NCBI RefSeq assembly: GCF_018873765.1
Contig: NW_025317353.1
Span: forward strand, 186,001-250,000
Length of the DNA: 64,000 bases
Direction of reading: 5' to 3'
From: Telopea speciosissima
Lineage: Eukaryota > Streptophyta > Magnoliopsida > Proteales > Proteaceae
Under the pieces are notes generated by a model, which saw only the letters and a program-made list of their open reading frames with translations, was not told the DNA's origin and did not search any database. A program made the translations under genes and the position numbers. This document shows, piece by piece, positions 18,721-64,000 of this stretch. Positions within the stretch are counted from its first letter, which is position 1, and every line of letters starts with the position of its first letter.

Positions 18721-19090
18721 AAATATCTAGAGTCATGAGACAATTAGACAAACTCTCTCCCATCTATACTCGCCGCAACCTGCTTTCTCCTTCGAATTGC
18801 ATAACCATCATCAATATCGCTTCCACTCCTTCTTCGAAGCTGAGGAGGTGATTCTTCTCATTCACACGGCTCATACCCGTTTCAGTTCCAGCAATTTTTT
18901 CCGATTCGAAAAATCAAACATCTCCAATAGGCTCTCACCGAGAGAGACGCCATTAATAACACTGAACGGTGCGAAAGGACCAGATCTCTCACTCGAGTTA
19001 GAACGCTTTCCACTCAGCTTCTTAATTTTCCGATTCGAAGCTGAGAATCGCTTTCTTCTTCTTCGTTGGCGTCGTCTCTTACTTCGAATT

Positions 19091-19281
19091 ATGCAGAATA
19101 CTTCACAAGCTTGGTTTATGGAGGGACCGAGTAATACTGATCAGAAGGAATCCTCGTCTCTGCTTGCCGATTGGAACTCTTGCGCGGTCTTGAAAGCTTC
19201 GGAAGAGACCGCATCCTCCAGATTCGGGTTTGATCTCGAAGCCGCTGTAAGAACTGCCAACGTCACCGGAAGTTTTAACGT
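19091..19281 (+). pseudogene. SFT2: SFT2-like vesicle transport protein, first-exon fragment
   Basis: The ATG opens a frame with MQNTSQAWFMEGPSNTDQ, then SSLLADWNS, then FDLEAAVRTANVTGSFNV. This matches the cytosolic N terminus of plant SFT2/Got1-like proteins, which are four-helix membrane proteins of Golgi traffic. A good donor, GTAAGC, starts at 19282. The membrane-spanning exons are not found downstream. Instead the next exons belong to an EFR3-like gene, so this is a captured fragment. If spliced to the exon at 19951 the frame would shift (phase 2 into phase 0) and end after about 30 codons. The copy at 35942 has lost the ATG. Family identity comes from remembered similarity. Confidence 0.6.
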
Positions 19282-19582
19282 GTAAGCGCAAATCTTAAAC
19301 CACCAATGATATTTGGCTTTTTAGTATATATATATTTCAGTTTTACTTCATGTTCTAGAGATATGACTTTGTCTCACTTTCCTGTTAGGAACTTTTTGTA
19401 TTCCGCTGGTCTCTACCTGCTTTTGCTCTAGATTCTGGATTTGTTTTCCTGGTAGGATGTGCCTGGTTGTTTGCTTCGTTTTTCTCCGGTGTCTGCAAAT
19501 CGCCACAGTAGCAGCAAATGGTTCAACAATGAAAGGGGTGGGTTGCAAGAGGAGGTGTGGTTGCAGTAAGAAGAAGAAGCAG

Positions 19583-19771
19583 GGTAAATAGGTAATTTTA
19601 ATTTCACTGTTTTCTATTGAATATGTGATAAGGATAAAATGGACTTTTCCATTCAACCACTAATAGCAGACTAACAACGTCAGGTTTCAGGGGTGTCAAG
19701 TAATTGTTTGAAAATTTGGGTATTTTAAGAAAAATGGCAATAGTCTAAGGGGTGTATAAGTAACCTTCCCC
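19583..19771. repeat. Orphan TIR of the Mutator-like family (copy in block alpha 1)
   Basis: About 190 bp, reverse-complementary to the left terminus of the TIR elements at 39820 and 47553. It contains GTCAAGTAATTGTTTGAAAA and GGCAATAGTCTA. No matching left terminus is nearby. Sister copies lie at 36437-36627 and 49493-49683. Confidence 0.75.
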
Positions 19772-19950
19772 ATAGCAAGTGCTGTTTGAGGGCATCAAGT
19801 TTGCAATGCCTTTCAGCCATGGTAGTTAGTGGATTTTTTTTTTTTTTTTGGTTGTAATGTTTTCTTGTTAGCGCAACATGAGCACAATCATTTTTTAAAT
19901 TTTCCTCCATCTAATTCCTCATCGAGTCAAATTGATTTTTCACATTTCAG

Positions 19951-20839
19951 GTGTGGTTTATGGCAGATTTGTCACATGTTCTTGATGGTTTTGATGAGGT
20001 GAGTGGTTTTCTAATGCTTTAGTATGTGTTGGCAATTGGACCCAGTGTTTTATGACTTGTTTCTTGGCACAATATGAAGAAATTGAGCTTTGGAGGTAGT
20101 AGCTGTACAAGGAAAACAGGTTAGAGTTAGAAGCAACAATGTGGAAATGTTTTAATAGAGGAATGATTAGGGGCTGTGGTGGGTACTTTCCACAGCGAGA
20201 GTAGTTTCTTCTGAAATAACTTTAGGTGTAGCTCATTTCTTGTTTCTAGGGCTGGCATTCCAAGACTTCAGACTCGTTAGATTTTTGACATGTTTACTCA
20301 TATTAATGCACGTTTGACATAGTATGGGTGTGTCTGTAGACTGCATTTAGTTCTAGGAGATCATTGAGTTTGATATGTATCCATTTAACATTATCTGCGT
20401 TTGCCGCTAACACATGTAATATTTGTTACATAGGATCAACAGTTGGTAAACCCGTAGCAAGTTATGATTAAAGCATGCGCAATTCATGTATATATGCGAG
20501 TCTGATAATCAAGTCTCTCTACATGTGAATATACTTCCGATTTAAGCTTCTGTTTGTACATCTCAAAATTTTGCTATTTTAAGTTTAATTGGGTTCCTCA
20601 ATCATGAATTTCTTTTGATTTAAGGATATATACTTTGCGCAGATTGTGCATGCCACACTGGATAACTACGAACCAGATATAAATCTTGTAGATGATGGTG
20701 AAAGGGGGGAACCAGATCACAATTGGGTTGATGAAGTAGTTAGATGTGAAGCAAGGGGTGGTGTTGGTGTTGGTAGTGATCTCAGCCTGGGCTACCTTAG
20801 GCCAAGACGAGAAAAAAAAGATTGCACTCTATCGACTCG
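19951..20839 (+). pseudogene. EFR3: EFR3/SRL2-like protein, two internal exons (copy 1)
   Basis: Exon 19951-19998 encodes VWFMADLSHVLDGFDE and exon 20643-20839 encodes IVHATLDNYEPDINLVDDGE.., HNWVDEVVRCEARGG and RPRREKKD. Both have AG acceptors and GT donors. They match consecutive internal exons of plant EFR3-like ARM-repeat proteins (SEMI-ROLLED LEAF 2 type). In yeast and animals this family anchors PI4-kinase at the plasma membrane. This is the only one of four copies whose long exon is free of stops and frameshifts. Upstream EFR3 exons are absent here, where an SFT2 fragment stands in their place, so it is a gene fragment and not a functional gene. Confidence 0.75.
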
Positions 20840-23800
20840 GTAATGATGTTTAGTTTTCTAACTGTTCATGGTGAATGGTTACTTGGTTTCTCTGCTCTAT
20901 TCCTTAAAATTATATGCAACTGTCTATTATAGATAAGTGTTCCTGTTATAGGTATTTCTAATTTCTTCATTTATGTTTATGTTCATTCAATTGGGGTAAA
21001 ATGTTTCAAAAGCATAAATTTTTGTTGTATATATTCACATTGTGATAGTATGTATTTGTTCACATCTTCATTTTTGTTTGGCTTGGGCACTTCCGCAAGT
21101 GAAATTGTTGGTTCCAGTACTTTTTCATGCCTTAAGTGCTTATCTTATTTTGGTTTCTCAAATTCAATTCTCTCTTATTTTTTAAAAATCTATCTCGTTT
21201 GCTTCTCTAGGAAATCTTGTTTATGAGTTATCCCCTTCTTTTTTGTTTTTTTTATTGGAGTAGTGCTTTATCAAAATTTTGTCTTTGGGCTTCTTGGTAC
21301 TTAACTCTATTTACTGTTTTAACTGGTAAAGGATTCTATTGCATTTTGTATTTATTTGTCTCAGAGTTTCACATTTTATGCCTGTAATTAATCCTGAAAT
21401 TGGTCAATTGTTATGTTTCTATACAACTCCGTGTCTCCCCACCTTTTTTTGGTTCTTATAGAGGTTTTCTAACGGGACATGGATAGCTTTTAATTTATTC
21501 TACAATGTGAACTGATAGATTTTTACCAAAAACAAGAACTGATAGATTGGGTGGGGGGGGGTTTCCTAACCACACTGATATGAGGTTATCATTTTGTTTT
21601 GACATTTTGGTAACAGGGGTATCAAAAAATAGGGGTCTGACCCCATAGAAACAACCTAATAGATTCATGATAGGGTACCTTTAGTCCAATTATGCCACTG
21701 TTATGGAATTCTTGATAATGGGTGTTGATATAATAGTATTGGGAGTCCGTTTGCTTCTGTGTTATATAGGTCATCTCTTGCCCCCCCACCCCACCCCCCC
21801 AAAATAGCTCCATAATATCGTCAAATCAATTTGATTATGATTTGTGTCACATTGTGCACAGGTGAAGCGATTGATGATCTTTGCAATGACAGACACAAGA
21901 CCTCACTGACTAAGCCAGCCGGTCTCTCCCTCTCTCTCAAGTTCCTAAGGTTAATGTTTTGTGGATGCCATCCTACATAGCATGGAAGCTTTATTTCCAA
22001 GAATTGGCTTCTCTTTGTTAATTTTTTTAAAAATATATCTCAAATGGTGTGCCATATTAGACACTCAATTCTTCTCTTTTTCCCTTTTCCTCATATCCCC
22101 AAAACAAAAATTCTGGAATCTCTGTATTTCTTCAGCTGATCTGCAGCCAAATGTTCCTTTGGGATACTACATCATGCCTCTGCACCTGTATTTCCTTCCA
22201 AATGTTGGCATTGCTTTGTCATGGACTGGTGAAGCGCAACATGAATTTTCCCATGAAATGAAGCTTGTACTACCTACAATTTTATTCATGAAAGTATTTC
22301 AGATCAAGATGAATTCGAGCTTGTAGGTATGACGTTATATTAAGATGTTAACAGCGATGCCTCTACTTGGTCTGTTGAGCCTACCATTGTAAATTCTGGA
22401 GAACTATAGTAGATGTCGGTTAGAGGGAAAAGCTTGCTTGAAGCTGTCTAGCCAAAGAGAATGTAGAACCGTAGGACATAAGTTTCTCTCTCTCTCTCTC
22501 TCTCTTCATAGAAGAAACAGATTAACCAGAGCTCAATTCCCTTTCAGAACTCCCTCTTAGTCAAACAGATAATGTAGAAGTAGAACCGTAGGTCATAAGG
22601 TTATATCTCTCTATCTTTCCATGGAAGAAACAGATTTATCAGAGCCCAATTTTCTTTCAGATCTCCCTCTTAGTCAATATATGTGACAGTTCCACAGCAA
22701 ATTCCCAACTGAATCTGTGGCCATGGAAACAAAGGTGAGAGAGGCTCTTGAAAGGTGGGTCAGAAGCAACCTGTTTCTAGGAAGTCCACTGACACATTTG
22801 GATAGAAAACCAGTCAGTATAGATAATGTGAGCCTAGAGTAGATAAAACGGCTCTAGAACCCTAGCATCTCTGCCAAGAAAGTTGGAATGTCTAAGCATG
22901 TGGAACTGATAAAGGGATCTTCTTGGTTTATTTTTGCTGATCACATTTAGCTTTTATCTATTGTGCTTCTTTTCGGCCTTATGCAATAATCAACCAAGTT
23001 GTGTCTTCTTTAGTTACGCTATATGAATGCTTCATGGAGGGAGAGATTACAAAGTAAATTTGAAATTAGGCCATTACGAATGTTGCCTTTACCAGCTAAA
23101 ATATAATGCAAGACTACCTCTTTGTCTGAAAGTATAGTAAGTTGTGGTTTCAATTTATATTTTGTGAATGCTATCGATGTATTATGGATGGAGGCACTCA
23201 AAAACTCTGATCAATGTTATCTGGTACATTGAAGCAGGAATGTCCATTGAAATGTGTACTTATATGGTTGTCAATTCACCTGTTTGTTGACCATGCATAT
23301 ATGTCTTACTAAAACATTGTCATTGTTTAAAAATGAATATAAAAAGAATGTTCTCTTTCGGATTTCTTGTGGGGTTCAAACTGTTCTAGATGTTTTCGAG
23401 CTTTTTTTTGTAATTCCTTAACTTTTAAATCATTTAAGCACTTTATGGTAGAAATGCAAACAATTTTCTCCATCAGAATTATTTTGCAATTAATGCTTTG
23501 CTTTGTTCTTTTATAATCAGACAGCAATATATGCTTCTAATTTTTTGACTGGGTGTTTCAAAATCACTGATTGAGAATTCCAGAACTCTTATTTTGCCTA
23601 CAAATATGCATGAAAGATTGAGAGTAATTCGAAATGCTTGGAAGGGAGAGGGGTAACCTAATCAGTAGCTGTAAGTCAGCATTCTTCTGTTTCAATTTTT
23701 TTATGCGGGGGGTGGGTTGTTCTGCAATTATGTTAATGCATATGTACCTATGCTTTTCTCTTTCTTCATCATTTCTGTAAATTACATATCATAGCTTAAT

Positions 23801-25229
23801 TTACAAAGCACATAAATTGTATGATTGTGCTTATTCAGGGGATTGGCCTCTGCCTTCCCCCAAGGAGGCACTGAACAGAAGAGATGGAGAGGGAGAGAGA
23901 GCTGACTACTTGATCTGTGATGAGACAGAAGATGGATTCTCTGGCTGCTCTTCCGTTTCCAGGTAATATACTTTTTCTCTTTCAGATAAATCAATGTATT
24001 TATTTTAATTATCAGATGAGGGACCTTTATTTGTATATTTCTACCATTACATCGCTACACGGGGAACACTCGTTTAATTTATGGATGGGAATATACTGTC
24101 TAGACACTCGTAAAATCTGCTGTCCTTTTTTTTTTTTATTTTTATTTTTTAAAGTATGTATATAGCTTAATGAAAAGTTTTATGTTCTATTCTGATTAAA
24201 TCTGGACGTTGTTATTGGTTTTTGATTTATACATACTGGGTTCTTCTGGGTTTTTGGTATATGTCATAAATGTCGTTACTATGATTGCAGCTTTCGAGTT
24301 TTCAATTTAGTTGATTTAATTGCTGATTCTTTTCTCAGACGGGATGTCTGCATTTGGGTTTCTCGTGGTTTTTGATAATTTAAGTTATTGGGTGTGTAAG
24401 TCTCGGCATCTGGACATTGATCTAATTTATTTATTTTGTGTGTTCCTCTGAATTTTTTTTTTTCCTTTAAATTCTATACAAATGTCTATACCTTGATTGC
24501 AGCTTTGGGGTTTTCAGTTTGGTTGATTATTGGATTGATTTTGATCTACGTTAGTGCAGTTTTGTTGGTTTTTAGATTATTCTCTCAGACGGGATCTTTG
24601 TATTTGGGTTTCTTTGTTTTTGAAAAATTTTAAGTTATCGGTTGACTTGGAAAGATGGGGCAGTGGAAACTTCAATCACTGCCTGTAGATTGGTAATCAC
24701 TATTCATTTTGAACGAATTCTGGGTTTTCAAAAGGTTGTGGTTTGCATATATACTCTGACTGCATCTTTGGTTTTGAATTTTATAGATTTTTTTAGATTG
24801 ATTTTGTTCTCTGGGTTGGATTCATAGGCTCTCTGATTCTTCTGTCAGTTGAATCTCTGCAGTTTGGGTTTTCCTTTCTGAAAATTTTAAGTGTTTGGGT
24901 AATAATGATAATGAAAGATAGTGTTTTGGTTATTATCACTGCATGGGTGAAAGATAGTGTTTTGCCCGGTGATCATACAGTAGGGTTGAGCATTGGGCTT
25001 CCTGGTTCTATTTGGTCTTGTTCCTTGTGAGTCTTATATTCTAATTTCTAAGCATTGATTTTTAGGTTTAACAACATTTATATTCTCATTTGAAATTCTC
25101 ACATTTCATGTTTATACATCTCTGTACCCGACTTATTCCCCCTCCAAATATTTCTTCCTTATCTGAATCTTGTAATATTTGTTTATTTTTACTCCAATTT
25201 TGGTTGTCTCAGCATTGCTTACATACAAG
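20840..25229. other. Intron-like and unassigned sequence of unit 1
   Basis: 20840-21865 is the EFR3-type intron shared with the other copies. 21866-25229 is unique to unit 1. It contains exon-like islands I cannot identify: 22138-22326, open frame with NVPLGYYIMPLHLYFLP, and 23840-23961, open frame before a GTAATA donor. It also has a (TC)n run at 22485-22505. The rest is T-rich intron-like DNA. Confidence 0.45.
22485..22505. repeat. (TC)n microsatellite
   Basis: About ten TC units. Confidence 0.85.
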
Positions 25230-25512
25230 AAATGAGCAGTTGATTCTAGCTGTTGTCATTCGACATGTGGATCACAAAAATGTTGCACATGATCCACAAA
25301 TTAAATTTGATATTGTTCAGATTGCTAATGCTTTGGCTCGGCAACTCAGAACAGGAGCTGTAGTCTCCGAAATTGGGATTATCAGTGATCTAAACAGGCA
25401 TTTGAGGAAGTCTCTTCAGGCAACAATTGAATTGGTAGGACAGCAAGAGTCAAACTTGAACATTTCACTCCTGACCTTCGTTGAAGACTGCTTATTGGAA
25501 ATTGCTAAAGGA
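25230..25512 (+). pseudogene. EFR3: EFR3/SRL2-like protein, later ARM-repeat exon
   Basis: This exon is open throughout. It follows an ACAAG acceptor and precedes a GTAAGTG donor. It encodes NEQLILAVVIRHVDHKNV, HDPQIKFDIVQIANALARQL, SDLNRHLRKSLQAT and NISLLTFVEDCLLEIAKG. This matches the exon that follows the DNYEPD region in plant EFR3-like proteins, apart from the exon encoding the intervening segment, which I could not find. It is thus collinear with 19951-20839 but incomplete. Only one copy is present in the window. Confidence 0.75.
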
Positions 25513-25947
25513 GTAAGTGCTATGCATATTCGCCGCAACCTGCTCTCTCCTCCAAATTGCAAACTCTGTTAAGATTCGCTTCCCTCTATACTCCCCGCAA
25601 CCTGCTATCCCCTCCGAATTGCAGAAGACCAAAACCCTTTTTCTGCTTCCATCATCAATGTCACTTCAACTCCTCCTTCGAAGCTAAGGAGGTGGTTCTT
25701 CTCATCCACCAACGAAGGCCCTCCTCCTGTTTCCGAGACCAGGTTAACCCAACCACAGAAGAAGATAGAAGTTCCGCTCAATTTTGAAAACACCAGAACC
25801 AAAGGTAGAAGAAATTGATTCAGGAAAACAGGCCTGTCCTGCGCATCTTCTTCTACCGCAATCCCTCCTTTACTATAGCAGCCATCACAGTGCTTTCTTC
25901 TATGTTTAACTGCTTGCAATTTAATAATCTTTGTTCTTTCCTATGGC
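25513..25947. other. Repeat of the SFT2 5' leader region
   Basis: 25570-25720 (CCCGCAACCTGCTATCCCC.., CTTCGAAGCTAAGGAGGTGG) repeats the sequence just upstream of the SFT2-like exon at 18755-18860. It is followed by C/T-rich sequence with no SFT2 exon, so this is a partial duplication of a 5' flank. Confidence 0.6.
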
Positions 25948-26012
25948 ACAGAGTTCAAAGTTCTTGTTTCAGTCCCAAGGGAAATTACTTAGTCGCTACT
26001 TCTTGGGACAAC
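25948..26012 (+). pseudogene. RAE1: RAE1 (WD40 mRNA-export factor) exon remnant, copy 1
   Basis: FSPKGNYLVATSWDN is readable in one frame. It matches the first WD repeat of RAE1/Gle2-type proteins, usually SFSP..LVATSWDN. The 5' part of the exon (VVQPPTNSV) is missing. It is followed at 26123-26230 by another exon-like stretch (frame PKGLAPPGAFHLIQPIKAQT) with a TTAACAG acceptor, of unknown origin, which recurs at 52673-52780. Confidence 0.55.
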
Positions 26013-26470
26013 CGGGATTTTTGCTTGCCGCCTCAATTAAATTTCTTCCTTCTTCCTCTTTTCTCTTCGTTGCTTACTCGTTGAGGATGTTTTCTGATGT
26101 TTTTTTGTTGAATTTTTAACAGGCCCAAGACCAACCCCAAAGGTCTGGCTCCACCTGGTGCTTTTCACCTAATTCAACCAATCAAAGCTCAAACTTGCAG
26201 CCCCGCACTGCAAAAAAAATTTCAGGCGGAGAAGCCATCAACTACATCGTCAAAACGCTGAGGTTTTCTCGTTGAGGTACTCTACTTCACTCGGACCTGT
26301 ATCTCTAGCCACCGCCATTTTCATTTCATTCAAGACTGCTTCACTGTAACTCGAACTAATCACTAACTTCTTATTTGTTTTTAAATTTTTGGTATTCTTT
26401 TTATTTCCTTCTCGACGCTTGGCACCTCATAACCGCTTCTCAAATTTTCCCTTATCATCCGGGACATAAC

Positions 26471-26888
26471 TATGATATCTGGTTTTGTTTCATGATCTTC
26501 ATCCTCGTTTACTACACTGCCATCTCTGGTGGGTAATCCATTTTCTTGCTTCTTTTTCTGTTTTCTGTTTTCTGTTGTTTACAATTTGATTATAAACAGT
26601 TGTGTGCGTTTGTGTTTACAGGAGGGCATATTAACCTAGCAGTGACGTTTGTGCTTTTTTTAGCCCATAAAGTGTCACTAATCCGTGCTGTGATGTACAT
26701 TGTGGTAGAGTGCTTTGGTGCAATGTGTGGTGTAGGGCTAGTAGAGGCCTTCCAAAAGTCTTACTATATGCAGTATGGTGGTGGGGCGAAGGAGATCGCC
26801 GATGGCTACAGAAAAGGTGTGGGTTTGGCAGCTCATATTATTGGCACCTTCATCCTTGTCTACATTGTTTTATGTGTGAAACTTGATA
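26471..26888 (+). pseudogene. PIP: PIP-type aquaporin fragment, copy 1
   Basis: Exon 26471-26528 ends FMIFILVYYTAISG at a GTGGGT donor. Exon 2 starts at 26622 with [10 protein letters not shown], then [36 protein letters not shown] and IIGTFILVY. This is the first half of a plasma-membrane intrinsic protein water channel (helices 2-4). The first NPA motif has become NLA. The [14 protein letters not shown] stretch is lost to a frameshift, and the second half of the channel is missing. A pseudogene fragment. Confidence 0.85.
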
Positions 26889-27816
26889 GGTTTTTAGAAC
26901 CAATTTGAGATTAAAATCCTTAGTTGGCCTGGCAAGATGTGTGTAAAATTGTGCGTGGTGATTATGCAGCTTACGTAGTTGTACGGAACTACAGTTGGCA
27001 TGTATCTCAGTTGTCACCTCCTCTATATAAATATTTGCCATTGACTGTTTTTGTTTTGCTCCCTCTCAAATCAACTCTATTTTCTCTTCTCCCTCTCTTT
27101 CTTTGTTCATTTGAGGCAATATAGGAAGGATCAGATTTTGGAAATATCAATTTTGAAGGTGCAGAAAGGGCTGAAAAAAGATGAGTGTTCTTTATAGCCA
27201 TTACTCTTTTCCAAGGCAAATGTGACCAAAATAAGGCTGGAGCTGTATCCATATAACAATGATTAACTTCTAATTTGCTAGAATAATGAAGAAGCTTAAT
27301 TCTATTCATGTGGTAAGCTAGGGTGATTCTAACAATGTTTTTAGGCTGGAGGCCATGGGTAAGAGATTCCTTGACAATATGTGACATTTTAGAGAAACTA
27401 GAAGGGCAGACTCCCTAGGCATGGATGGATTTTTTTTATTTTTTTAAATATTTTTTATTATTGTTATGATTCGAGTTTTCATTGTTATTACTATCAGAAA
27501 AACTGTTGTTATCGGCCTATATCCTCTTCTTTAATAAACTCACTAGTACTTTAAAGCAACAACCGATCACTGGTTTACTCAGTATCTTTTTCTTATTAAA
27601 AGAATTATATGCCATATGTTTGCCTATTATATTAGGTCTCAATAGCAGCTCTATGTGAAATTTTATTTTCGAATTCTTTCTATATAAGCTCTGAAGCATG
27701 ATGGAACTGTTCAATTCTTTCTCTCTAATATTAATTATGAGTTATAGTTCTTTTTATGTATGTCTCATTTGAGGGCAAGTTAAGTGCAAATTGTGCTATA
27801 TTTTCTCAATTGACAG
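26889..27816. other. Intron-like, no recognised exon
   Basis: T-rich sequence. 27340-27480 (GGCTGGAGGCCATGGGTAAG..) and 27500-27780 recur at 38590-39090, marking the second duplicated block. Confidence 0.55.
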
Positions 27817-28117
27817 GTTGAAACAGCTGCATCTGAAAGGGAGCAGTTCTTGCTTGTGAAAATTTCAGAGGTTGAAGCCAGGTCGATCATATTGTGAATC
27901 AAGTAACTGGGTTGAACCTTCTGTAGGACTTCGTGTTTGCTTGGCCAAATGGACCAAGAATCTGAATTAATACAAGACATAAAAGTGATTCTGAAATCCT
28001 TTTACAAAAGAAAAAGGAATCTCTGTTTCCTCTTATATTTTTACTTTCCTTTTCCTTTGATGTAGAATGATTAATCCAACAGAGGAGGTAGCTGAGGCAA
28101 GGTTGAAATATCTGCAG
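27817..28117 (+). pseudogene. Two unidentified exons of one gene, copy 1
   Basis: Exon 27817-27881 (acceptor TTGACAG, donor GTCGAT) encodes VETAASEREQFLLVKISEVE. Exon 28066-28117 (acceptor GATGTAG, donor GTAAGT) encodes MINPTEEVAEARLKYLQ, with an Arg codon split across the junction. The joined peptide is charged and helical, coiled-coil-like. I do not recognise the gene. Both exons recur, damaged, at 39107-39632. Confidence 0.5.
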
Positions 28118-28206
28118 GTAAGTGGTTGAGGAAGGTTCCTTCTGAGCTCTTCTGAATAGAAAGGTACCACATGATTTTGTGATAGAAACATTGACTTTCC
28201 CAGATA

Positions 28207-28224
28207 AGAGAGAGAGAGAGAGAG
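28207..28224. repeat. (AG)n microsatellite
   Basis: Nine AG units. Confidence 0.8.
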
Positions 28225-28389
28225 TACATATACAGATGTGTTTTCCTATCTAGTTTGTAGGGTTGTCATGTATCCTTGTTTGAGATAAACTCATCTATCT
28301 TCTTGTTACAGGGTGTTAATAAAAACAGAGTAGTCCTACTTATCTTTTTAACATCCAGGGTAATGATGTCTTGCTGTGTAATTTTGTAG

Positions 28390-28464
28390 AAGGGTGCTCC
28401 AAATAAACGGAAAATTATTAAATTGTGTGAATATGAGGCCAAGAACCCCCTCCGAATTCCAAAG
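28390..28464 (+). pseudogene. EFR3: EFR3/SRL2-like N-terminal exon, copy 1
   Basis: The exon follows a TTTTGTAG acceptor and encodes KGAPNKRKIIKLCEYEAKN plus PLRIPK, the conserved second-exon region of plant EFR3-like proteins. The donor is damaged: the sister copy reads AAAG|GTACTC, while here one G is missing. The copia element begins 20 bp downstream, in the intron. Confidence 0.75.
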
Positions 28465-28484
28465 TTAATCCCTTCTTTCAACAT

Positions 28485-28711
28485 TGTTAAGAGTACTTAG
28501 TTTCAGGGGTATATTTGTACTTAGACACTTACTTATGTATTTTATGTGCTATTTGTATTAGGCTAAGGGCACGAGTGTAATTAGATATTCTTCTCAATAT
28601 AAGGTTGTTTGTCTCAAGTTGAGAGACATAACACATTACACCAAATCGTGTTTGAACTTTGCCTCCTTGGAGCTTTTCTCCTCTCTTCTCTTTCTCCTCT
28701 AAAACCTAACA
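28485..28711 (+). repeat. 5' LTR of the copia element
   Basis: 227 bp, TG..CA termini, matched by 33506-33733. Confidence 0.95.
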
Positions 28712-28723
28712 TGGTATCAAAGC
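28712..28723 (+). other. Primer-binding site (initiator Met tRNA)
   Basis: TGGTATCAAAGC lies directly after the 5' LTR. It differs by one base from the usual copia iMet-tRNA complement, TGGTATCAGAGC. Confidence 0.85.
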
Positions 28724-29231
28724 ACTTTCTTCCGGAGTTTGAAGGTTGTGTGGAAGGCTGGAGTGAGCTGCAATCCCCTTGTTCTTCTTTGGTTTGCAAA
28801 GGAAACCTTGGGGTATCTTCACCAAGCTTCTCCTTCCTTGTTTGACAACCAAATAGGGAGCAACCAGATGCTCTAGCATCGTTTGGAAGTCTTCTTCCCT
28901 ATCATTTGGTCCTCTCAGTCGCTGGTAGCATCGAGAGGAGAGAATCGAGTTTCGGCCGGCAGTTTTTCTCCCGGTTCCGCAGCCGAGCTCTTGAGTGATC
29001 CAGCTCTTAGTGTGAGCTTTGTTTGCTGCTTTCTTTGGGCCATACAGCATCGTTTTGGGTAAGGAAGACTTACCCTTGTTGCTCGCGCTGCTGTTCGCTT
29101 CGTTTGGGTTTTACAAGCCTTTTTTCAGTTTTTCTGGTCTCTGTACTGTTTTCTTTTTGTGTTCAAGGAGCAGATGGCTGTGGTTGAAATACTGTTGTTT
29201 GGACTTATTAAGCATTTGATTTGAGTTAAAT

Positions 29232-32200
29232 ATGGGTGACAAAAATGAGGAAACAGCCTTGCCTTTGTCGTAGACCCACTTCTTGCATCATCCTCTGTCC
29301 CTTCATATGAGAACACCAATGTGCAGCTTCCCATTGTCAAGTTGGACAATACCAATTACCTAGATTGGTCTCGATCCATGAAAGCGATCCTTAGGTGTAA
29401 GGGAAAGATGGGGTACATAAATGGCGACATCAAGGCACCTCTTCCTACCGAAGCAGGGTATTCCAAATGGGACACGAGAACTCATGGTGATGGCTCGCTT
29501 CTTTTCTCAATGGCCCGAGATTGGACGGAGGTTTATGGGTAAAGAGCGCCAAAGATATTTGGAACAGTGTAGCCCGTATCTTTGATCGTGTTGGAGACTC
29601 TACAAAGGTGTACCAACTTCTCCAACAGATTGTTAGCCTACGCCGGGTGATAGAAGCATCTCTCGACTACTATTGTCTTGTTGTGGGCTGTGGGAGGAGT
29701 ATGATCACTATAGAGATCTTCGATTGTGTCCGATGATGAAGTCAAGGTACACAGGTTGTTTGAGAAGGAGAGGGTACTATTTCTTCTTGGTGGCCTGAAT
29801 CCTGAATTTGAGCCTCTAAGGGTACAAATCCTGGCCGACCTAGTCTTCCCTCATGGAGGAGGTGTGTGGATATCTACAGAGCGAGGAAACCCGTAGGGGT
29901 GCCATGGAGACTAGTATCAACACCACTATGAGCGCCCGCTCTTGTTTCTTCCATCCTCGGACTCCACTAAGGGAGCCGATAAGGGGGCTGCTAAGGGGTC
30001 TTCGAAGAGCCGATTCTTATGTGACCATTGTGGTAAACCCGGACATACAAAGGACTTGTTGGGATCTCCAGGAAGCCCCACGTGGTTCCACTCGGGGATG
30101 AAGGGACAATGGAAAAAGGGGCCTAAGGCTCAGTTGGGGTCATCAAGCTGATTCATCCTCCCTTTCCCCGTACATCGACATTCTTGCCTCGTCAGGTTGT
30201 AGCCCACGACGGTTCACTGCAGCTCCTACTTCTCAGTACTACAGGCCTCTTCCTCCTCCGCATCACACCTTGGGTTATTGACTCGGGCGCCACGGATCAT
30301 ACGACCGGTAGGTCCCACTGTATAATTCCTACTCGTTTGTTCTCGGGAAAGATAAAGTAAAAATTGCCGATGGTACATTCTCTTCCATCTCACGGTAAGG
30401 GAGATATCCAGGTTACACCTTGCTTACCCTCAAGTCTGTTTTTCATGTTCCCAACTTTGCTACTAACCTTCTTTCCGTTAGCCAATTGACTAAATCTTTG
30501 AACCGCTTTGTCACCTTCTTTCCTACCCATTGTCTTTTTCGGGATTTGGTGACGAGGAAGGTGATTAGCGGTGGTCCTGAAGCGATGGCTTATATGTTTT
30601 GGAAGCGGTGCTTCCTCCGTTGTACAACCTCAATCCTATGTTTGTGGGCTAGAAGGTGGACGTACTCAAGAGGATATTTTGCTTTGGCATCGTCGGTTGG
30701 GACACCCTTCTTTTTTGTTATGAGGAAACATTACCTCACTTGTTTACTTCCTTTCCAGCCTCTCATGTTTTTCATTGTGAACCTTGTCTATTGCCAAAAG
30801 TTGTAAAACAGTTTATACATCCAATGGTAATAGATCGACTTCACCTTTTCATCTTACTACATACCGATGTTTGGGGCCTTCCCCTGTTACCTCTTTCGTG
30901 GCTTCCGCTACTTTGTCTCTTTTATTGATGATTATTCTCGGGTTACTTGGGTGTACTTGTTGAAACATAAAAGTGATGTATATGTTGCATTTACAAATTC
31001 TATGAGTTAGTGTATACCCAATTTCAAACCCGGATCCAAATTGTTCGTTCGAAAGGTGGGGAGTATATGTATAGTGGTTTGGAAACCTTTTTTCGACCAT
31101 GGCATTATTCATCAGTGGTTCGTGTTGATACCCCACAACAAAATGGGGTGGCTGAAAGAAAAATCGCCACCTTCGAAGTGGCTAGGTCCCTTTGGTTTAC
31201 CATGCATGTTCCCAAAACTTTTGGTCCGATGCTCTACTCACCTTGTCTTTCTTATTAATCGCATGCCGTCTAGTGTCTTACAATTTCAAGTTCCTCTTGC
31301 TGTCCTACCCTCACGGTCTTCTTCATTCTCTCTCCCTCCAAAGGTGTTTGGTTGTATTTGTTATGTACATGTTAGCAAATCTGCCCGCACTAAATGGATC
31401 CTAAGGCTCAAGCGCATCTTTCTCGGTATTCCTCCACCTCCAAAGGATATAAATGCTATCATCCTCCCACTCGTCGGTGGCTTCTCTCAGAGATGTCCGT
31501 TTCTTTGAAACCATACCTTTTTTTCATCACCTCTTCGGGGGAGTGTTTATCGCTTGGTAGTGGTATTCGGTGAAGAGGTTCCCAGTCTGCCTCACTTCCT
31601 ATCTCCTATCCTGTTCCTATTTCACCTTTTCGATTGACAAGGAAAGAGAAGTTCTGCTGAGGGGGCCTTGTATAGAGAATGTAGTTGAGGGGGAGCACCC
31701 AGGTGTACAGAGGAACAGAGAACAAGGGGAGCTACTGGTGTATACGAAGGAAAGGAGAAATCCCGCTTCACGGCTGCCTATAAAGAAGACCCGCCAAAAT
31801 CCTTCTTCATCACCTCATCCCGAGTCTCCATCCATCGAGACAGTATACCTTCTTCTACCCCTATATCCTCGGACTTGGACCTTCCTATTGCCACCGTAGG
31901 GAACTCGGGCATGTACTAATCCCATGCAAGTTTGTTTCCTATGATTCTATTTCCCTTACAGGTATAGCCTTCTCTGTGGCTATCTCCTCCATATCTATTC
32001 CCAAGAATGTAGGCGAGGCTATGGCAGATCCAAAATGGAGAGAAGCAATGAACACAGAGATGTTGGCACTGAGAAGAATCATACTTGGGACCTTGTTGAG
32101 CTCCCTAAAGGGAGAGTCCCGTTGGGTGCAGATGGGTATTCACAGTCAAGTTCAAGTCTGATGGTACCGTGGAGAGATATAAGGCAAGACTTGTCGCTAA

Positions 32201-42571: not shown

Positions 42572-42607
<36 letters not shown>

Positions 42608-49276: not shown

Positions 49277-49492
49277 TATATATATCTATATTTTTTTCAG
49301 TTTTACTTTTCTTTCTTGGTCAGTTCTAGAGATATGACTTTGTCTCACTTTCCTGTTAGGGACTTTTTGAATTCCGCTGGTCTCTACTTGCTTTTGCTCT
49401 AGATTCTGGATTTGTTTTCCTGGTAGGATGTTCAACAATGAAAGGGGTGGGTTACAACAGGAGGTGTGGTTGCAGTAACAAGAAGAAGGAGA

Positions 49493-49683
49493 AGGGTAAA
49501 TAGGTAATTTTAATTTCAGTGTTTTCTATTGAATATGTGATAAGGGTAAAATGAACTTTTCCATTTAACCACTGACAGCAGACTAACAACGTCAGGTTTC
49601 AGGGGGTGTCAAGTAATTGTTTGAAAATTTGGGTATTTTAAGAAAAATGGCAATAGTCTAGGGGGTGTAAAAGTAATTTTCCC
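49493..49683. repeat. Orphan TIR of the Mutator-like family (block alpha 3)
   Basis: Third copy of the isolated right terminus, ending AGTAATTTTCCC, followed by TATAGCAAG as in block alpha 2. Confidence 0.75.
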
Positions 49684-49844
49684 TATAGCAAGTGCTGTTT
49701 GAGGGCATCAAGTTTGCAATGCCTTTGGACCATGGTAGTTGGTGGTTTTTTTTTTTTTTGGTTGTAATGTTTTCTTGTTAGCGCAACATGAGCACAATAA
49801 TTTTTGAAATTTACCTCCATCTAATTCCTCATTGAGTCAAATTG

Positions 49845-50717
49845 ATTTTTCACATGTTCTTGATGGTTTTGATGAGGTGAGTGGTTTTCTAATGCTTTAG
49901 TATGTGTTGGCAATTGGACCCAGTGTTTTATGACTTGTTTCCTGGCACAATATGAAGAAATTGAGCTTTGGAGCTAGTAGCTGCACAAGGAAAACAGGTT
50001 AAAGTTAGAAGCAACATTGTGGAAATGTTTTAATAGAGGAATGATTAGGGGCTGTGGTGGGTACTTTCCACAACGAGAGTAGTTTCTTCTGAAATAACTT
50101 TAGGTGTTACTCATTTCTTGTTTCTAGGGCTGGCATTCCAAGACTTCACACTCTTGTTAGATTTTTGACATGTTTACTCATATTGATGCACATTTGACAT
50201 AGTATGGGTGTGTCTGCAGACTGCATTTAGTTCTAGGAGATCATTGAGTTTGATATGTATCCATCTAACATTATCTGCATCTGCCACTAACACATGTAAT
50301 AGTAGTTACATAGGATCAACAGTTTGTAAACCCGTAGCAAGTTATGATTAAAGCATGCGCATTCATGTATATATGCGAGTCTGATAATCAAGTCTCTCTA
50401 CTTGTGAATATACTTCCGATTTAAGCTTCTGTTTGTACATCTCAAAATTTTGGCTATTTTAAGTTTAATTGGGTTACTCAATCATGAATTTCTTTTGATT
50501 TAAGGATTTATACTTTGTGCAGATTGTGCATGCCACACTGGATAACTACGAACCAGATATAAATCTTGTAGATGATGGTGAAAGCGGGGGAGCCAGATCA
50601 CAATTGGGTTGATGAAGTAGTTAGATGTGAAGCAAGGGGTGGTGTTGGTGTTGGTAGTGATCTCAGCCTGAGGTACCTTAGGCCAAGATGAGAAAAAAAA
50701 GATTGCACTCTATTGAC
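49845..50717 (+). pseudogene. EFR3: EFR3/SRL2-like two exons, copy in block alpha 3
   Basis: The first exon has lost its acceptor and VWFMA part. Only DFSHVLDGFDE remains, before GTGAGT. The second exon, from 50523, encodes IVHATLDNYEPDINLVDDGE, then an inserted G shifts the frame before HNWVDEVVRCEARGG. Confidence 0.75.
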
Positions 50718-51855
50718 TCAGTAATAATGATTAGTTTTCTAACTGTTCATGGTGAATGGTTACTTCGTTTCTCTGCTCTATTTCTTAAAATTATATGCAA
50801 CTGTCTATTATACATAAGTGTTCCTGTTATAGGTATTTCTAATTCATCATTTATGTTTATGTTCATTCAATTGGGGTAAAATGTTTCAGAAGCATAAATT
50901 TTTGTTGTATATATTCACATTGTGATAGTATGTATGTGCTCACATCTTCATTTTTGTTTGGCTTGGGCACTTCCACAAGTGAAATTGTTGGTTCCAGTAC
51001 TTTTTCATGCCTTAAGTGCTTATCTTATTTTTGTTTCTCAAGTTCAATTGTCTTTTTTATTTTTTTACTTGTTTGCTTCTCTAGGAAATCTTGTTTTTGA
51101 GTTATCCCCTTCTTTTTTGTTTCTGTTTTGGAGGGTAGTGCTTTATCAAAATTCTGTCTTTGGGCTTCTTGGTACTTAACTCTATTTACTGTTTTAACTG
51201 TTAAAGGATTCTATTGCATTTTGTATTTATTTGTCTCAGATTTTCACATTGCATGCCTGTAATTAATCCTGAAATTGGTCAATTGTTATGTTCTCATACA
51301 ACTCCGCGTCTCCCCACCTTTTTTTTGGTTCTTATAGAGTTTTTCTAATGGGACATGGATAGCTTTTAATTTATTCTACATTGTGAACTGATAAAGTTTT
51401 TCCAAAAAAAGAACTGATAGATTGGGTGGGGGGTTTTACTAAACTCACTGATATGAGGTTATCATTTTGTTTTGACATTTTGGTAACGGGGGTATCAAAA
51501 AATAGGAGGTTATCTTCCTTATTTTTTACTTATTCTAATTTGTGCTATTTTTTAGTGAAGATCGTAATCTAATCTGTTCGCGTTTCCTTCTTCTTCTTTT
51601 CTCTCCTTTATCTTCATTGAGCTCCAGAAGCAAGCATATTATGGACCGGTTTCATCAGAATCCGTTTTCTCTCCCTTCGTTGAAAGCATTTATGCTTTGC
51701 AGTTGCGGAAGCCAACTCCAGAGCCGCTAAGAATAATCCACCTCTGCGGAGCCTTTTGTTCTCACAACGCCTCTTTATTATGTAAATGCCCCTCCCCACA
51801 TGGGAAGCGCCTATACTACCATTGCCGCCGCCAAGAACAATCCGCCTCTAGTTTT

Positions 51856-52395
51856 GTTTCATGATCTTCATCTTCATTTACTGCACCGCCGGTATCTGCG
51901 GTGGGTAATCCATTTTTTTGCTTCCTTTTCTGTTTTCTGTTGTTTACAATTTGATTATAAACAATTGTGTGTGTGTGTACAGTGTCACTAATCCATGCTC
52001 TGATGTACATGGTGGCACAATGCTTTTGTGCAATGTGTGAAGTAGGGCTAGTAAAGGCCTTCCAAAAGTCTTACTATGTGCTGTATGGTGGTGGGGCGAA
52101 CGAGATCGCCGATAGCTACAGCAAAGATGTGGGCTTTGCAGCTGAAATTATTGGTACCTTCATCCTTGTCTACAGTGTTTTCTCTGCTACTGATCCCAAG
52201 AGAAATGCCAGAGACTCCCATGTCCCTGTAAATTCACTCATTTTACTTGGAAAACAGAGTATTATTAGAAGTGATATAGAAATCATTCTCAATTCTCTTG
52301 TTAACACTACGTGGAAAACGTTCTAATTGAGAACTTTTGCTTGGGATTTACAGGTATAGGCACCACTTCCAATTGGGTTTGCAGTTTTGTTCCCC
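51856..52395 (+). pseudogene. PIP: PIP-type aquaporin fragment, copy 3
   Basis: Exon-1 remnant 51856-51902 (CFMIFIFIYCTAGICG in a shifted frame). Exon 2 at 51983-52227 lacks the GGHINPAV part but is open: [20 protein letters not shown], then [38 protein letters not shown] and NARDSHVP, with a GTAAAT donor. Exon 3 starts at 52354 with a TAG in place of Leu, then APLPIGFAV. The second NPA half is absent. It keeps the [12 protein letters not shown] loop that copy 1 lost. Confidence 0.85.
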
Positions 52396-52614
52396 CCCTC
52401 CCCTTGGTGGGTGGCACAACCAGGTTTTTTGATCGCTGCCACAATTGAATTTCTTCCTTCTTCCTCTTTTCTCTTCTTTATTTTTTAGTCATTCCCTCAT
52501 AATGCTCATTCTAATTTGCGCTATTTTGAAGTGAAGATCGTAATCTACTGCCAATAGTTTTTCTATGCTTTGCTTACTGGTTTTGAATGTTTTCTATTGT
52601 TTTGCTTGATACAG

Positions 52615-52780
52615 GTTGTTCAACCTCCTACAAATTCGGTTTCAGTCCCGAGGGTTTTTTTAAACTTTTTAACAGGCCCAAGCCCAACCCTAAAGGTCCG
52701 GCTCCACCTGGTACACTTCACCTTATTCAAGCAGTCAAAGCTCAAACCTGCAGTCTTGCACTGCAAAAAAATTTCAGATA
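52615..52780 (+). pseudogene. RAE1: RAE1 exon remnant plus unidentified exon, copy 2
   Basis: After a GATACAG acceptor the frame reads VVQPPTNSV. A short deletion then removes TSLSF, and the reading frame is lost. From 52673 the unidentified exon (PKGPAPPGTLHLIQAVKAQT) recurs, as at 26123. Confidence 0.6.
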
Positions 52781-52789
52781 GAGATGGTG

Positions 52790-53398
52790 TTTTCAATAGG
52801 AATTTGAACTGGGCAGATGCAAAGGAGGAACTTTGGGAGTACTATTTGATGACTGTATTCCATTCAAGCTGAAGGTGAACATTCATGGATTTAAGACCAG
52901 CATTGCTTTTCGGAGTTCATTGTTAGGAGATGAAAAAAAAACATGTGCATAATTGAGTGTAGCAGAGATAATGATCTTGTGTTAGATACTATTATTATGA
53001 TTGGGAATGTGAATTAGATAATTTTCAACATGCTTCAACATGCTTTACCATGGATGAAATCGATGAAGATACGGTTAGGAGAAAACGAAGTGCACAATCC
53101 ATTGAGCTGAAGCATCCTCAGTTCTTTTATAGGAGAAGTCACCGGATTCAGGTGGGGCATTGATGTCTCCTGGAGCTGATTCACATCAGAACCGGTGTTG
53201 TCCCAAGACCACTTTGAGGGTGAAAAACAGATTGTGATGGTGGGAACAAGTGAGTGATTCTCTATATCTTTTATATGTGAGCTCTTTTTTTCCTGTTTCT
53301 CGTTTCTGGAATCAAACTCTTTTTTTCTTCCTCCATCTTTCTTCCTATCTGACAAGAAATTTTTTTCCCTATATTTTTTCCCATTTGAAAATTTACAG
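52790..53398. other. No recognised exon
   Basis: T-rich, intron-like sequence just upstream of the ARF exons. The minus-strand open frame at 53035-53355 shows no family I know. Confidence 0.45.
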
Positions 53399-54520
53399 CT
53401 AGAAGCATCGACGAACCAGGAATTGAATCAGCAAATTCCAGTGTTTAATCTTCCTTCGAAGATCCTTTGTCGTGTTATACACATTGAGTTGGTGGCATTC
53501 CTCTTTGTAAATTTGCCTCTCTTTCTCTCATTGGGTGTTTTGTATTTTTGTTGATTTCTACTATTTCCAGGCTGAACAAGAAACAAATGAAGTTTATGCG
53601 CAAATTACCTTACAACCTGAAGCAGATGTAAGACTTACTTTTCAAATTTCAACCCGTTCAATTGTGAAGTTGCAAGTGGAGAAAATTTAATTTAAAGTTT
53701 TCTGATATAATTTGTACAGCAAAGTGAGCCCAGGAGTCCTGATCCAAGCACTCCTGAACCTCCACGACCTACCGTTCACTCTTTCTGCAAGATTTTAACT
53801 GCATCTGATACAAGTACTCATGGCGGCTTCTCTGTTCTTCGGAAACATGTTAACGAATGCCTTCCTCCATTTGTATTTGTCATTCTATTTTGTTGTTTCT
53901 TTGTACTTCACTTCCTTTAGTGGTTTTCTTTCTTGAAGGATATGAACCAGTCAACTCCAACCCCAGAATTGACTGCAAAGGATCTTCATGGTTACGAATT
54001 TAAGCACATCTTCAGAGGTACCTGCAGTTGCGTTTTTCTGTTTTCCTTTATGGCAAAATTACATTTTGGTTGGTTGTAGTTATTGATGTCCAAGTTATTT
54101 CACATACATTGTCAAACAAATCAAAGCTAAACTTTCCATTCCACATAGTATTAAACATGGAGGTATGCGGACATGTAAATGACTGAGGAGTCCTACCTCT
54201 TTCAAATTGAATGTACCAGGTCAACCCTGCAGGCATTTGCTTACAACGGGATGGAGTACGTTTGTCACTTCTAAGAGATTGGTTGCAGGGGATGCTTTTG
54301 TTTTCCTGAGGTATTTGAGCAGAGGGCTTTATTAATATGATCACATCTTCTCTCCGCTTTCCGTTTTTCAGGATTTTGAGTAGTTATGCTTCGTATTTTA
54401 CTGACTGATTATGTAGTGGGAGAATGCAGAATTAAGTACGTGTTGGAGTTGGGCGTCTTGGTCGTCAACAAAGTACCATGCCATCGTCTGTGATATCAAG
54501 CCAAAGCATGGACCTCTGGT
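53399..54520 (+). pseudogene. ARF: Auxin response factor (ARF) DNA-binding region fragment
   Basis: Six exons are in gene order. 53399-53500: LEASTNQELNQQIPVFNLPS, KILCRVIHIEL. 53571-53627: AEQETNEVYAQITLQPEAD. 53720-53872: [38 protein letters not shown]. 53939-54017: DMNQSTPTPELTAKDLHGYE, FKHIFR. 54220-54310: [31 protein letters not shown]. From 54417: GVGRLGRQQSTMPSSVISSQ after a frameshift. This is the B3 DNA-binding domain of a plant auxin-responsive transcription factor. HGYEWRFKHIFR has lost its Trp-Arg pair (6-bp deletion) and the first donor is degraded. Start, middle region and PB1 domain are absent. A LINE lies about 35 bp downstream. Confidence 0.9.
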
Positions 54521-62163: not shown

Positions 62164-63145
62164 GTTACTATATCCCCATTCGAATATCTCTCTGTCCTCC
62201 TTTTACTCTACACATGTCATGGAGAAGCGAGGGGTTAGTGTGTTGGTTGCAGTCCTGATATGCACCACCGTTCCAAGTTGCAGAGTGAGAGAGGGAAAGG
62301 AAGAAAGACAGTGAGATCTATTTGTAACAGAGGGGTGGGAGGACAGAGGGTAGAGATGGGAGTGGGTGAAATGTTAAAAAGCCAAATTTGGGAAAATATT
62401 CAATTTGGGCAGAAACCCCAAACATCCCTTTTAAGACTTGAGGTATCTCATAGGTACTTTAATCAAATATTGGGCACCTTACATGTAATTTACCCTTACT
62501 TTTATGGATGATTTGTATACACTACTTCCATTTGCAACAACAGCTAAATGTTGCATATGGCCGGAAGAAGAAAGGGGCACAGTGGGGGAAAGGCACAGCT
62601 TAAAAAAAGGAAAAATCGGAATTGTAAAAAAGGAGAGAAAGTTTCATGTACTCAGGTAACACAGTACATTCCTGTCAAACTTTTTCTTAAAAAGAAATAT
62701 TTCTTTCTATTGACTTGTGGCTATTCTTCATTAGCAGCACCTGTGGAGAGCAGCAGAGGCAGACACGGTAGTTTCAAAATCATGCTTCTCAACAATAAAA
62801 ATAAGGTCCTCCAGGATTTGTGCACTGCTGTTGAGAAGTAGGTAAAATAGTTTTAAAAAAGGGTTTTTTTTTTGTCTGACTATTTACCCCTTTTTTCCGT
62901 ACTGATACGGTAGTTTCAAAATCATGCTTCTCCACAATTATCGCTTTGTTTTATATTTGAGTAGTATAATCTGAGGTTTTCATTTGACCAACAATGTCTA
63001 ATATTGCATTTGTAGAGGATCGCTCCATTTTTGTCTAACTTTTTCCCTTTCTTGAATATTGATCTTGGACCTTATCGACTGCCACCAGTATTTCGATGCT
63101 TTGCTTACTCGTTTTGGTTGTTTTCTAATGTTTTACTTGATACAG
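62164..63145. other. No identified gene, one exon-like segment
   Basis: DNA resuming after the LINE. 62735-62840 (acceptor TTCATTAG, donor GTAGGT) has an open frame with AAPVESSRGRHGSFKIMLL, which looks like a real exon but which I cannot name. From about 63070 the RAE1-flanking repeat begins. Confidence 0.45.
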
Positions 63146-63232
63146 GTTGTTCAACCTCCTACAAATTCGGTTACGAGCCTTAGTTTCAGTCCTGATGGAA
63201 ATTACCTCGTCGCTACTTCTTTGGACAAGCAG
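63146..63232 (+). pseudogene. RAE1: RAE1 exon fragment, copy 3 (complete exon)
   Basis: An 87-bp exon after the acceptor TTGATACAG. It encodes VVQPPTNSVTSLSFSPDGNY, LVATSLDKQ, the N-terminal strand and first WD repeat of the nuclear-pore mRNA export factor RAE1. The donor is degraded to GTTGTT. No other RAE1 exon is present, so it is an isolated fragment. Confidence 0.75.
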
Positions 63233-63666
63233 GTTGTTTGAACGCCGCCACAACTGAATTTCTTCCTCCTTTCTCTTCTTTATTTTTAGTCATTCGCTTG
63301 CAGTGCTCATTCTAATTTGTGCTAATTTGAAGTGAAGATCGTAATTTATTCTTTTCGCATTGCCTTTTATGTGTGAAACTTTACTATTTCTTAGGATTTC
63401 AGGACTTGAGGCAGTCACTCCAGTCAGTCATACATGCCCATTTCATTCCTTCCTAAGTCAGAAATGCTCTCTCCCCCTCTCCCTCTCCTCACAGATACCT
63501 CATCTAGGTGCTTAACATGTTGAGTTACGCTACCATCAGAGGCCACTGTCCAAATTCTTTGAACAGGTAAGGGGAAATTTTTGGTTGGTTGAAGAAGTGC
63601 ACCGATAAGTAAAACGTTCGCTATCCAAAAACACTGGATAACTTGATTCTACTTCGTCAAGGTACA

Positions 63667-63691
63667 CCTCTCTCTCTCTCTCTCTCTCTCT
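63667..63691. repeat. (TC)n microsatellite
   Basis: About twelve TC units between two RAE1 exon copies. Confidence 0.85.
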
Positions 63692-63758
63692 AGAGAACCC
63701 ATATGGGATAAATTTTTCATGCATCGCTTACTCTTTTAGCTTGTTTTGCTTGATGCAG

Positions 63759-63845
63759 GTTGTTCAACCTCCTACAAATTCGGTTACGAGCCTTAGTTTC
63801 AGTCCCGAGGGAAATTTCCTCGTTGCTATTTCTTGGGACAACTGG
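63759..63845 (+). pseudogene. RAE1: RAE1 exon fragment, copy 4 (complete exon)
   Basis: Same 87-bp exon as 63146-63232 after a GATGCAG acceptor: VVQPPTNSVTSLSFSPEGNF, LVAISWDNW. The following 150 bp (to the window edge, ending TCTTCATTGAGCT) repeat 51500-51625, so the duplicated unit continues beyond the window. Confidence 0.75.
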
Positions 63846-64000
63846 GTTTTTTATCGCCGCCTCAATTGAATTTCTTCTGTTTCTTTTATCTTCCTTATTC
63901 TTTAAGCTATTCTAATTTGTGCTATTTTTAAGTGAAGATCGTAATCTAATCAGTTCGCATTTCCTTCCTCCTCTTTTCTGTCCTTTATCTTCATTGAGCT

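Follow-up and report, generated by a model that had tools for sequence, protein, structure and literature searches.

How do pieces of at least five unrelated genes come to lie side by side, in one orientation, and to be repeated along a single stretch of DNA? The question is raised by 64,000 nucleotides of the Telopea speciosissima assembly (positions 186,001 to 250,000 of contig NW_025317353.1, here C17:186001-250000; this whole stretch is called the window), in which a sequence-only reading had recognized exon fragments of SFT2-like, EFR3-like, PIP aquaporin, RAE1 and auxin response factor (ARF) genes. The window was compared with itself and with the assembly, 822,943,500 bases in 1287 contigs. 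Genome-wide counts are given as first-look candidates, of which 40 were scored per query, and the exon-level gene names are in part tentative. The locus is probably explained by a composite unit of gene fragments that gave rise to an irregular, macrosatellite-like tandem array, with Pack-MULEs (Mutator-like elements, MULEs, carrying gene fragments) copied along as passengers.

Self-comparison of the window with BLAST found same-orientation blocks at about 18.95-21.9, 34.9-38.5, 49.1-51.5 and 63.1-64.0 kb, at the places where the sequence-only reading had put them. The long blocks are 88-93% identical, and their insertions and deletions differ from unit to unit. The duplications are real, and the window is a slice of a larger array system; the three to four repeats counted earlier hold within the window, but the array is far larger than the window showed. 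One window EFR3 segment had 76 candidates, and the 40 scored gave 44 matches of 87-100% identity, mostly on contigs C17, C15 and C1 (at 8.4-8.8, 10.1, 14.3-14.7 and 83.6-83.9 Mb); C4, C11, C69 and C915 contributed a small number. On C1, a contig of 87.8 Mb, the blocks at 8.39-8.46 and 8.74-8.81 Mb carry the window modules in an order that recurs: m5b, X, RAE1, Y, Z, PIP, RAE1 again, PIPd, W, the EFR3 segment, and then m5b once more. The units have different insertions and deletions, and in some the EFR3 part is present in a long form. A neighbouring pair is offset by 6938 bp and is 93% identical over 5735 aligned columns, and a second unit type at C1:8.638-8.647 Mb has an offset of 4105 bp, with neighbours 95% identical and 40 candidates genome-wide; both types are thus arranged head to tail on the kilobase scale. 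The 4.1-kb unit has the PIP-RAE1 core in common with the larger unit, together with an extra RAE1 piece and no EFR3 module. For the ARF piece there are 49 candidates, many of them about 4.5-5.4 kb apart on C15 and C17, a spacing that suggests a third unit type. Module X was found four and six times in the two 80-kb C1 blocks, and elsewhere as scored matches and candidates; genome-wide, modules m5b-X have 108 candidates and module W has 182. The C1 block at 8.385-8.465 Mb is on the minus strand and that at 8.735-8.815 Mb on the plus strand. Copies at 14.2-14.3 and 14.5-14.7 Mb are likewise oppositely oriented, and these orientations may reflect large inversions.

The EFR3 identity was established by a Pfam match to EFR3_ARM (3.7e-17, for a composite of window exons), with no relative among PDB sequences, where a single match was at chance level. 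An EFR3-like gene whose exons are open as recognized lies on contig C4 (66.656-66.666 Mb, locus L025). A C1 unit matches positions 2336-3847 and 4707-7154 of this locus, a 4.8-kb stretch of gene of which the intervening 0.86 kb is absent from that unit. What had been described as exon fragments is, for EFR3, a gene segment of several kilobases rather than single captured exons. Its left fusion is within a GA microsatellite and its right fusion follows GCTATGCATATTC. In exon 4 an identical 8-bp frameshift insertion (alignment positions 41-49) is found in all 14 copies read on C1, C17 and C15 and is absent from the C4 gene; the arrays therefore descend from one already broken founder. The lesion can be seen in the window, for example, from position 34380, and its size of 8 bp would be compatible with a hAT footprint. 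When stops and net frameshifts were scored against the C4 frame, exon 4 was broken in 14 of 14 copies read, exon 3 in 10 of 14, exon Qb in 8 of 17 and exon R in 6 of 12. A functional tandem gene cluster would contain intact coding copies, and exon 4 is frameshifted in every copy read. The array would most likely encode no EFR3-like protein and behave as satellite-like DNA.

One EFR3 exon is interrupted by element A, a Mutator-type element whose cargo is the 5' end of an SFT2 gene. SFT2 exon 1 alone had no Pfam match. The SFT2 piece matches C9:1371810-1372337(-) over bases 1-497 of an 821-base query, and it was named because this source locus lies upstream of Got1-domain matches, located 2.2-2.5 kb downstream of it on the same strand. 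The right terminal inverted repeat (TIR) of element A, about 180 bp long, is present in all three window units with its outer end facing EFR3 sequence. The left TIR is absent from the window and present, as GGGAAAATTACTTG.., in array copies. Array copies have both TIRs and are flanked by the 9-bp target-site duplication (TSD) TATAGCAAG, and the C4 gene has a single uninterrupted TATAGCAAG site within the exon, which is the exact empty site of the element. Among the ten best loci, TATAGCAAG is exact on both sides in five (L031-L034, and L038 once its left side was extended from the C1 block), on the right side only in L030, L036 and L037, and on neither side in window unit 1 (L029) and L035. 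Element A thus has the long TIRs, the TSD of 9-11 bp with an empty site, and the gene fragment from a separate source that characterize Pack-MULEs. On a tree of 21 EFR3 copies, the presence of element A takes two changes, compared to a mean of 7.1 for shuffled labels, and none of 500 shuffles was as low; the copy at C17:440287 was scored as lacking the element, its SFT2 piece being about 820 bp upstream and beyond the 500 bp read for scoring. The simplest reading of these sequences would be one insertion of element A into the EFR3 exon, subsequently multiplied with the array.

Two other elements, MULE-B and MULE-C, are inserted in the array. The TIR/TSD pair of MULE-B had no counterpart in eight shuffled controls, and unit 1 has the corresponding empty site at 28415-28423 with one mismatch. 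MULE-B is found at the identical point, with the 9-bp overlap, in five further C1 units and in one partial unit; since this insertion point is common to several units, the element was copied along with the array. Its left TIR is doubled together with flanking target sequence (39802-40242, a 220-bp tandem, 93%). MULE-C is nested in the SFT2 piece of unit 3; its TSD is a simple repeat and hence weaker, and its interior beyond the first 86 bases was not found in the mapped array loci.

The remaining named modules were identified with varying precision. The RAE1 exon alone had only generic WD40 matches, and the RAE1 pieces are homologous to loci at C1:7.23 and C7:4.82 Mb, which were located with a RAE1 query. 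PIP was identified by Pfam MIP (1.8e-19) and plant PIP2-4 (6.9e-34), and ARF by PDB ARF1 (3.4e-20) and, on a composite, Pfam B3 (2.9e-16); relatives of the ARF piece outside the clusters are at C6:67.08 Mb (89%) and C6:56.50 Mb (88%). No convincing TIR/TSD pairs were found around the RAE1, PIP and ARF pieces, the inverted pairs in the four stretches tested being only 14-19 nucleotides long. Within the segment that replaces EFR3 sequence in unit 1, 22680-23835 has a relative at C10:63089069-63090218 (84%). Six PIP first exons occur in 66 kb at C2:9.09-9.16 Mb, an apparent tandem PIP cluster. The sequence-only reading as a whole is partly supported. Its DNA-level duplication with introns, its multi-gene origin and its tandem amplification were borne out, the PIP, ARF and EFR3 names by profile or structure-library matches and the SFT2 and RAE1 names through source loci. 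Of the capture by Helitrons or Pack-MULEs that it considered, the Mutator type was demonstrated, and for the SFT2 piece only.

Table 1. Array features and internal matches, in window positions
Feature	Position	Strand	Evidence
SFT2 5' end (5' untranslated region, exon 1, start of intron 1), element A cargo, unit 1	18954..19450	+	C9 match; Got1 downstream
Right subterminal region and TIR of element A (TIR 19591-19768)	19451..19774	+	TIR match; the stretch alone matches many genome places
EFR3-like segment, unit 1, exons VWFMADLSHV.. and IVHATLDNYEPD..	19772..20848	+	91.7% to L025 4564-5642
Segment replacing EFR3 sequence	20849..24961	+	C4 locus unmatched at E 1e-6
EFR3-like segment, unit 1, exon NEQLILAVVIRHVDHK..; right fusion ~25525	24962..25531	+	94.7% to L025 6585-7154
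Modules m5b and X, between EFR3 and RAE1	25526..25960	+	Genome-wide candidate search
RAE1 exon 2 and intron 2 piece	25966..26071	+	82% to RAE1 locus L039 over 97 bp
Modules Y and Z, unnamed	26103..26467	+	Equally placed in C1 and C11 units; some lack Z
PIP aquaporin exon 1 end, intron, exon 2	26468..26880	+	Pfam MIP, PIP2-4
Module PIPd; 26986-27104 resembles RAE1 5' sequence	26881..27338	+	Module mapping, RAE1 comparison
Module W, unnamed exons VETAASEREQF.. and MINPTEEVAEAR..	27339..28206	+	Genome-wide candidate search
EFR3-like segment, exon ..RKIIKLCEYEAKNP..; left fusion at GA microsatellite	28207..28484	+	87.6% to L025 2341-2630
Copia retrotransposon inserted in unit 1; long terminal repeats (LTRs) 227/228 bp, 98.2%	28485..33733	+	RVT_2 6e-19
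EFR3-like segment, broken exons IAKYL*QRC.. and TKQDSVRILGC..	33742..34918	+	89.9% to L025 2669-3847
EFR3-like segment without element A and without L025 3848-4706	34913..35803	+	L025 comparison
SFT2 piece with right TIR of element A, unit 2	35805..36624	+	Self-BLAST, TIR match
EFR3-like segment, unit 2	36627..37493	+	L025 comparison
PIP stub, unit 2	38497..38577	+	91% to 26468-26548
Module W and EFR3-like exon, unit 2	38586..39819	+	Self-BLAST, L025 comparison
MULE-B, Mutator-type, in EFR3 exon; TSD TTGTTAAAT at 39811-39819 and 41130-41138	39820..41129	+	TIR/TSD scan
EFR3-like segment, unit 2	41130..42842	+	80.8% to L025 2561-4258
SFT2 intron remnant, unit 3	47497..47552	+	98% to 19279-19333
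MULE-C, nested in SFT2 piece; TSD TATATATAT	47553..49276	+	TIR match; empty site in unit 2
Remainder of SFT2 piece with right TIR of element A, unit 3	49277..49681	+	Self-BLAST, TIR match
EFR3-like segment, unit 3	49684..50730	+	90% to L025 4563-5643
RAE1 intron piece	51510..51640	+	51510-51623 91% to 63886-64000
PIP pieces: exon 1 end, exon 2, exon 3 start	51847..52411	+	Pfam MIP 5e-18; exon limits by eye
RAE1 pieces and module Y	52412..52784	+	Self-BLAST, RAE1 comparison
ARF piece, several exons and introns	53381..54330	+	PDB ARF1, Pfam B3, C6 relatives
RAE1 pieces in tandem	62978..64000	+	Self-BLAST, RAE1 comparison
Self-match	18954-20031 = 35805-36886		92%, self-BLAST
Self-match	19521-21633 = 49430-51506		93%, self-BLAST
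Self-match	20244-21866 = 36905-38497		93%, self-BLAST
Self-match	33742-34865 = 41238-42325		88%, self-BLAST
Self-match	19924-20754 = 34915-35733		92%, self-BLAST
Short RAE1 blocks	at 25966, 52412, 63183, 63796		Self-BLAST

Some of the span that the sequence-only reading assigned to the array belongs to other elements. The Copia retrotransposon occupies 28.5-33.7 kb; it has TG..CA LTRs and a primer-binding-site-like TGGTATCAAAGC, and no target duplication was seen when its insertion was compared with unit 2. Copies of an LTR-like repeat were recognized by eye at 42.9-44.2 and 55.6-58.2 kb. This solo-LTR-like repeat of about 2.8 kb, TGTCACACCCC..CACA, is also found at 15531-18417, and three copies in the C1 array have, by eye, apparent 5-bp target duplications. 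The region at 54.6-62 kb looks by eye like a long interspersed nuclear element on the minus strand; the one large open reading frame tested there had no Pfam match. To the left of the array, a choline kinase-like exon lies at 8029-8499 on the plus strand (Pfam 2.5e-22).

The proposed origin is as follows. A composite unit would have been assembled by fusion of an EFR3-like segment, taken from the 4.8-kb stretch, with pieces of RAE1 and PIP and with unnamed pieces; the named gene pieces of the unit are all in one orientation. The RAE1, PIP and ARF pieces were probably joined by repair or template switching; one of the EFR3 fusions falls within a microsatellite, and no ends of an enclosing transposable element were found. 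The composite would then have grown and shrunk as a tandem array by deletion and, as its presumed engine, unequal exchange, and arrays would also have spread between sites. Mobile elements landing in the array would have been copied along with it, including the Pack-MULE that brought the SFT2 5' end into the EFR3 exon.

Several observations weigh against this origin or blur it. No stop or frameshift is present in 9 of 17 Qb and 6 of 12 R copies. The pooled ratios of nonsynonymous to synonymous differences (pN/pS) in four exons are 0.37, 1.09, 0.64 and 0.58 between copies, for pairs that are not independent, and 0.32, 0.58, 0.22 and 0.88 between source and copy. Values below 1 are not expected of fully neutral copies; constraint on the source explains part of this, but does not fully explain the copy-versus-copy values. 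The tree of EFR3 copies intermixes those of C17 and C1, and most of its forks are weak (4 of 18 starred). Module X is spaced at 6955, 9985, 12776, 19219 and 7418 bp in C1b and at 15198, 23516 and 16628 bp in C1a; with spacings of 7 to 23.5 kb, the array is therefore irregular. The alignment to donor genes proposed by the sequence-only reading located EFR3, SFT2, RAE1 and ARF loci, but no PIP source could be singled out among 26 first-exon matches, and the junctions of the RAE1, PIP and ARF pieces were not traced to breakpoints at their sources. It should be noted that the C1 arrays were read over 160 kb, in the two 80-kb blocks, together with smaller loci, and that the analysis was made from assembly sequence alone.

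If the whole composite were one transposable element, either a Helitron or a giant Pack-TYPE element, with all the genes captured by it before it inserted in tandem, the single orientation of the named pieces would be accounted for. Pack-TYPE elements that combine sequence of several loci have been reported (PMC8903248, as excerpted), single units do occur outside the main clusters, for example at C11:22.24 Mb with dispersed TIR element ends at both sides, and one Helitron-like 3' end was found on the plus strand of the C1 unit (control mean 0.1, range 0-1; strict hairpin rule). We nevertheless consider this origin unlikely. Under the same strict rule (hairpin plus CTRR), the 18.7-64 kb region has no Helitron-like 3' end on the plus strand and two on the minus strand, compared to a shuffle mean of 0.9 for each and thus without clear excess, and the minus strand of the C1 unit has none. 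A TIR/TSD scan of 15-64 kb, which covers elements up to 6.5 kb and skips simple-repeat TSDs such as that of MULE-C, found a 9-bp TSD at MULE-B only, none of 10 or 11 bp, and one 8-bp pair, which is at the control level (0-1). On C11, moreover, the element ends point toward the unit, so that the neighbours end there rather than enclose it.

A local cluster of EFR3 genes that arose by ordinary tandem duplication and received unrelated insertions would fit the large share of EFR3 sequence in the unit and its match to 4.8 kb of the C4 gene. It is very unlikely in view of the exon 4 lesion, the same in every copy read, and of the RAE1-PIP core, which is part of the repeat and is present also in the 4.1-kb unit without EFR3 modules; module W, with 182 candidates, also outnumbers the EFR3 segment, with 76. 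An assembly artefact, which the sequence-only reading had named as its refutation, or unmerged haplotypes might be suspected, given the small size of contig C17 (494,616 bp) and the difficulty of assembling arrays of this kind. This we regard as highly improbable: copies differ by several per cent, insertions and empty sites differ between units, and similar arrays lie within the 87.8-Mb contig C1, where the 160 kb read contain no Ns. The nearest relatives, among the copies read, of the four EFR3 segments of the window are 95-98% identical to them, and allelic duplicates are rejected on this divergence; the heterozygosity of T. speciosissima is 0.76% in the excerpted text of PMC13080361.

Outlying copies are located at C2:23.69, C4:25.45 and C6:40.89 Mb. 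The C11 unit (L026) is the least explained observation. It is a single unit with internal deletions, lying outside the main clusters, with array homology from 2674 to 9216 of the reverse complement in alignments of 76-93%. Its start and end map within 3-7 bp of each other on C1 units that span that point, and each end adjoins a dispersed TIR element (1659 candidates), with the terminus of the element pointing toward the unit; no second TIR copy of this element was found in the 4.7 and 3.3 kb of flank read. Near-coincident ends, both at transposon ends, would be expected of a one-unit circle or array segment with a transposon copied there. The sequence would fit either a unit copied from an array or circle bearing the dispersed element, or two independent insertions at the edges. 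A broader proposal, that scraps of at least five genes became several related macrosatellite families, mainly on C1 and small contigs, which spread as single units, perhaps via circular DNA, is tentative and we hold it to be doubtful.

The composite unit and its tandem array can be compared with several known systems. Pack-MULEs, as far as excerpts of PMC8903248 and PMC13317346 describe them, resemble element A in its long TIRs, 9-bp TSD and SFT2 fragment with a separate source gene and its intron kept, but this explains one module; no TIRs were found around the whole unit, which is tandem-amplified. The human macrosatellites D4Z4, DXZ4 and RNU2, in the partial accounts consulted, likewise have kilobase-scale head-to-tail units, whereas the unit described here is a mosaic of broken gene pieces, irregularly spaced, and more than one unit type has the RAE1-PIP core. 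Multi-gene capture is known for maize Helitrons. Those with captured gene pieces (PMC13317346, in excerpt) are similar in carrying several intron-bearing pieces in one orientation, but here Helitron termini are not supported and the units are tandem. Plant satellites derived from retrotransposon tandem repeats (PMC7004042, in excerpt) also represent new tandem DNA from non-satellite DNA, while the source of the present array is largely genic. No title describing such an array was found in the literature searched, a search whose coverage excluded most subscription journals.

The array would represent a route from gene fragments to satellite-like DNA, the steps of which may be read within one genome: source gene, broken founder, entry of a Pack-MULE with its empty site, tandem growth and later insertions. 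Annotation pipelines could call many pseudogene exons in such DNA. The combination of transduplication and tandem amplification becomes testable here.

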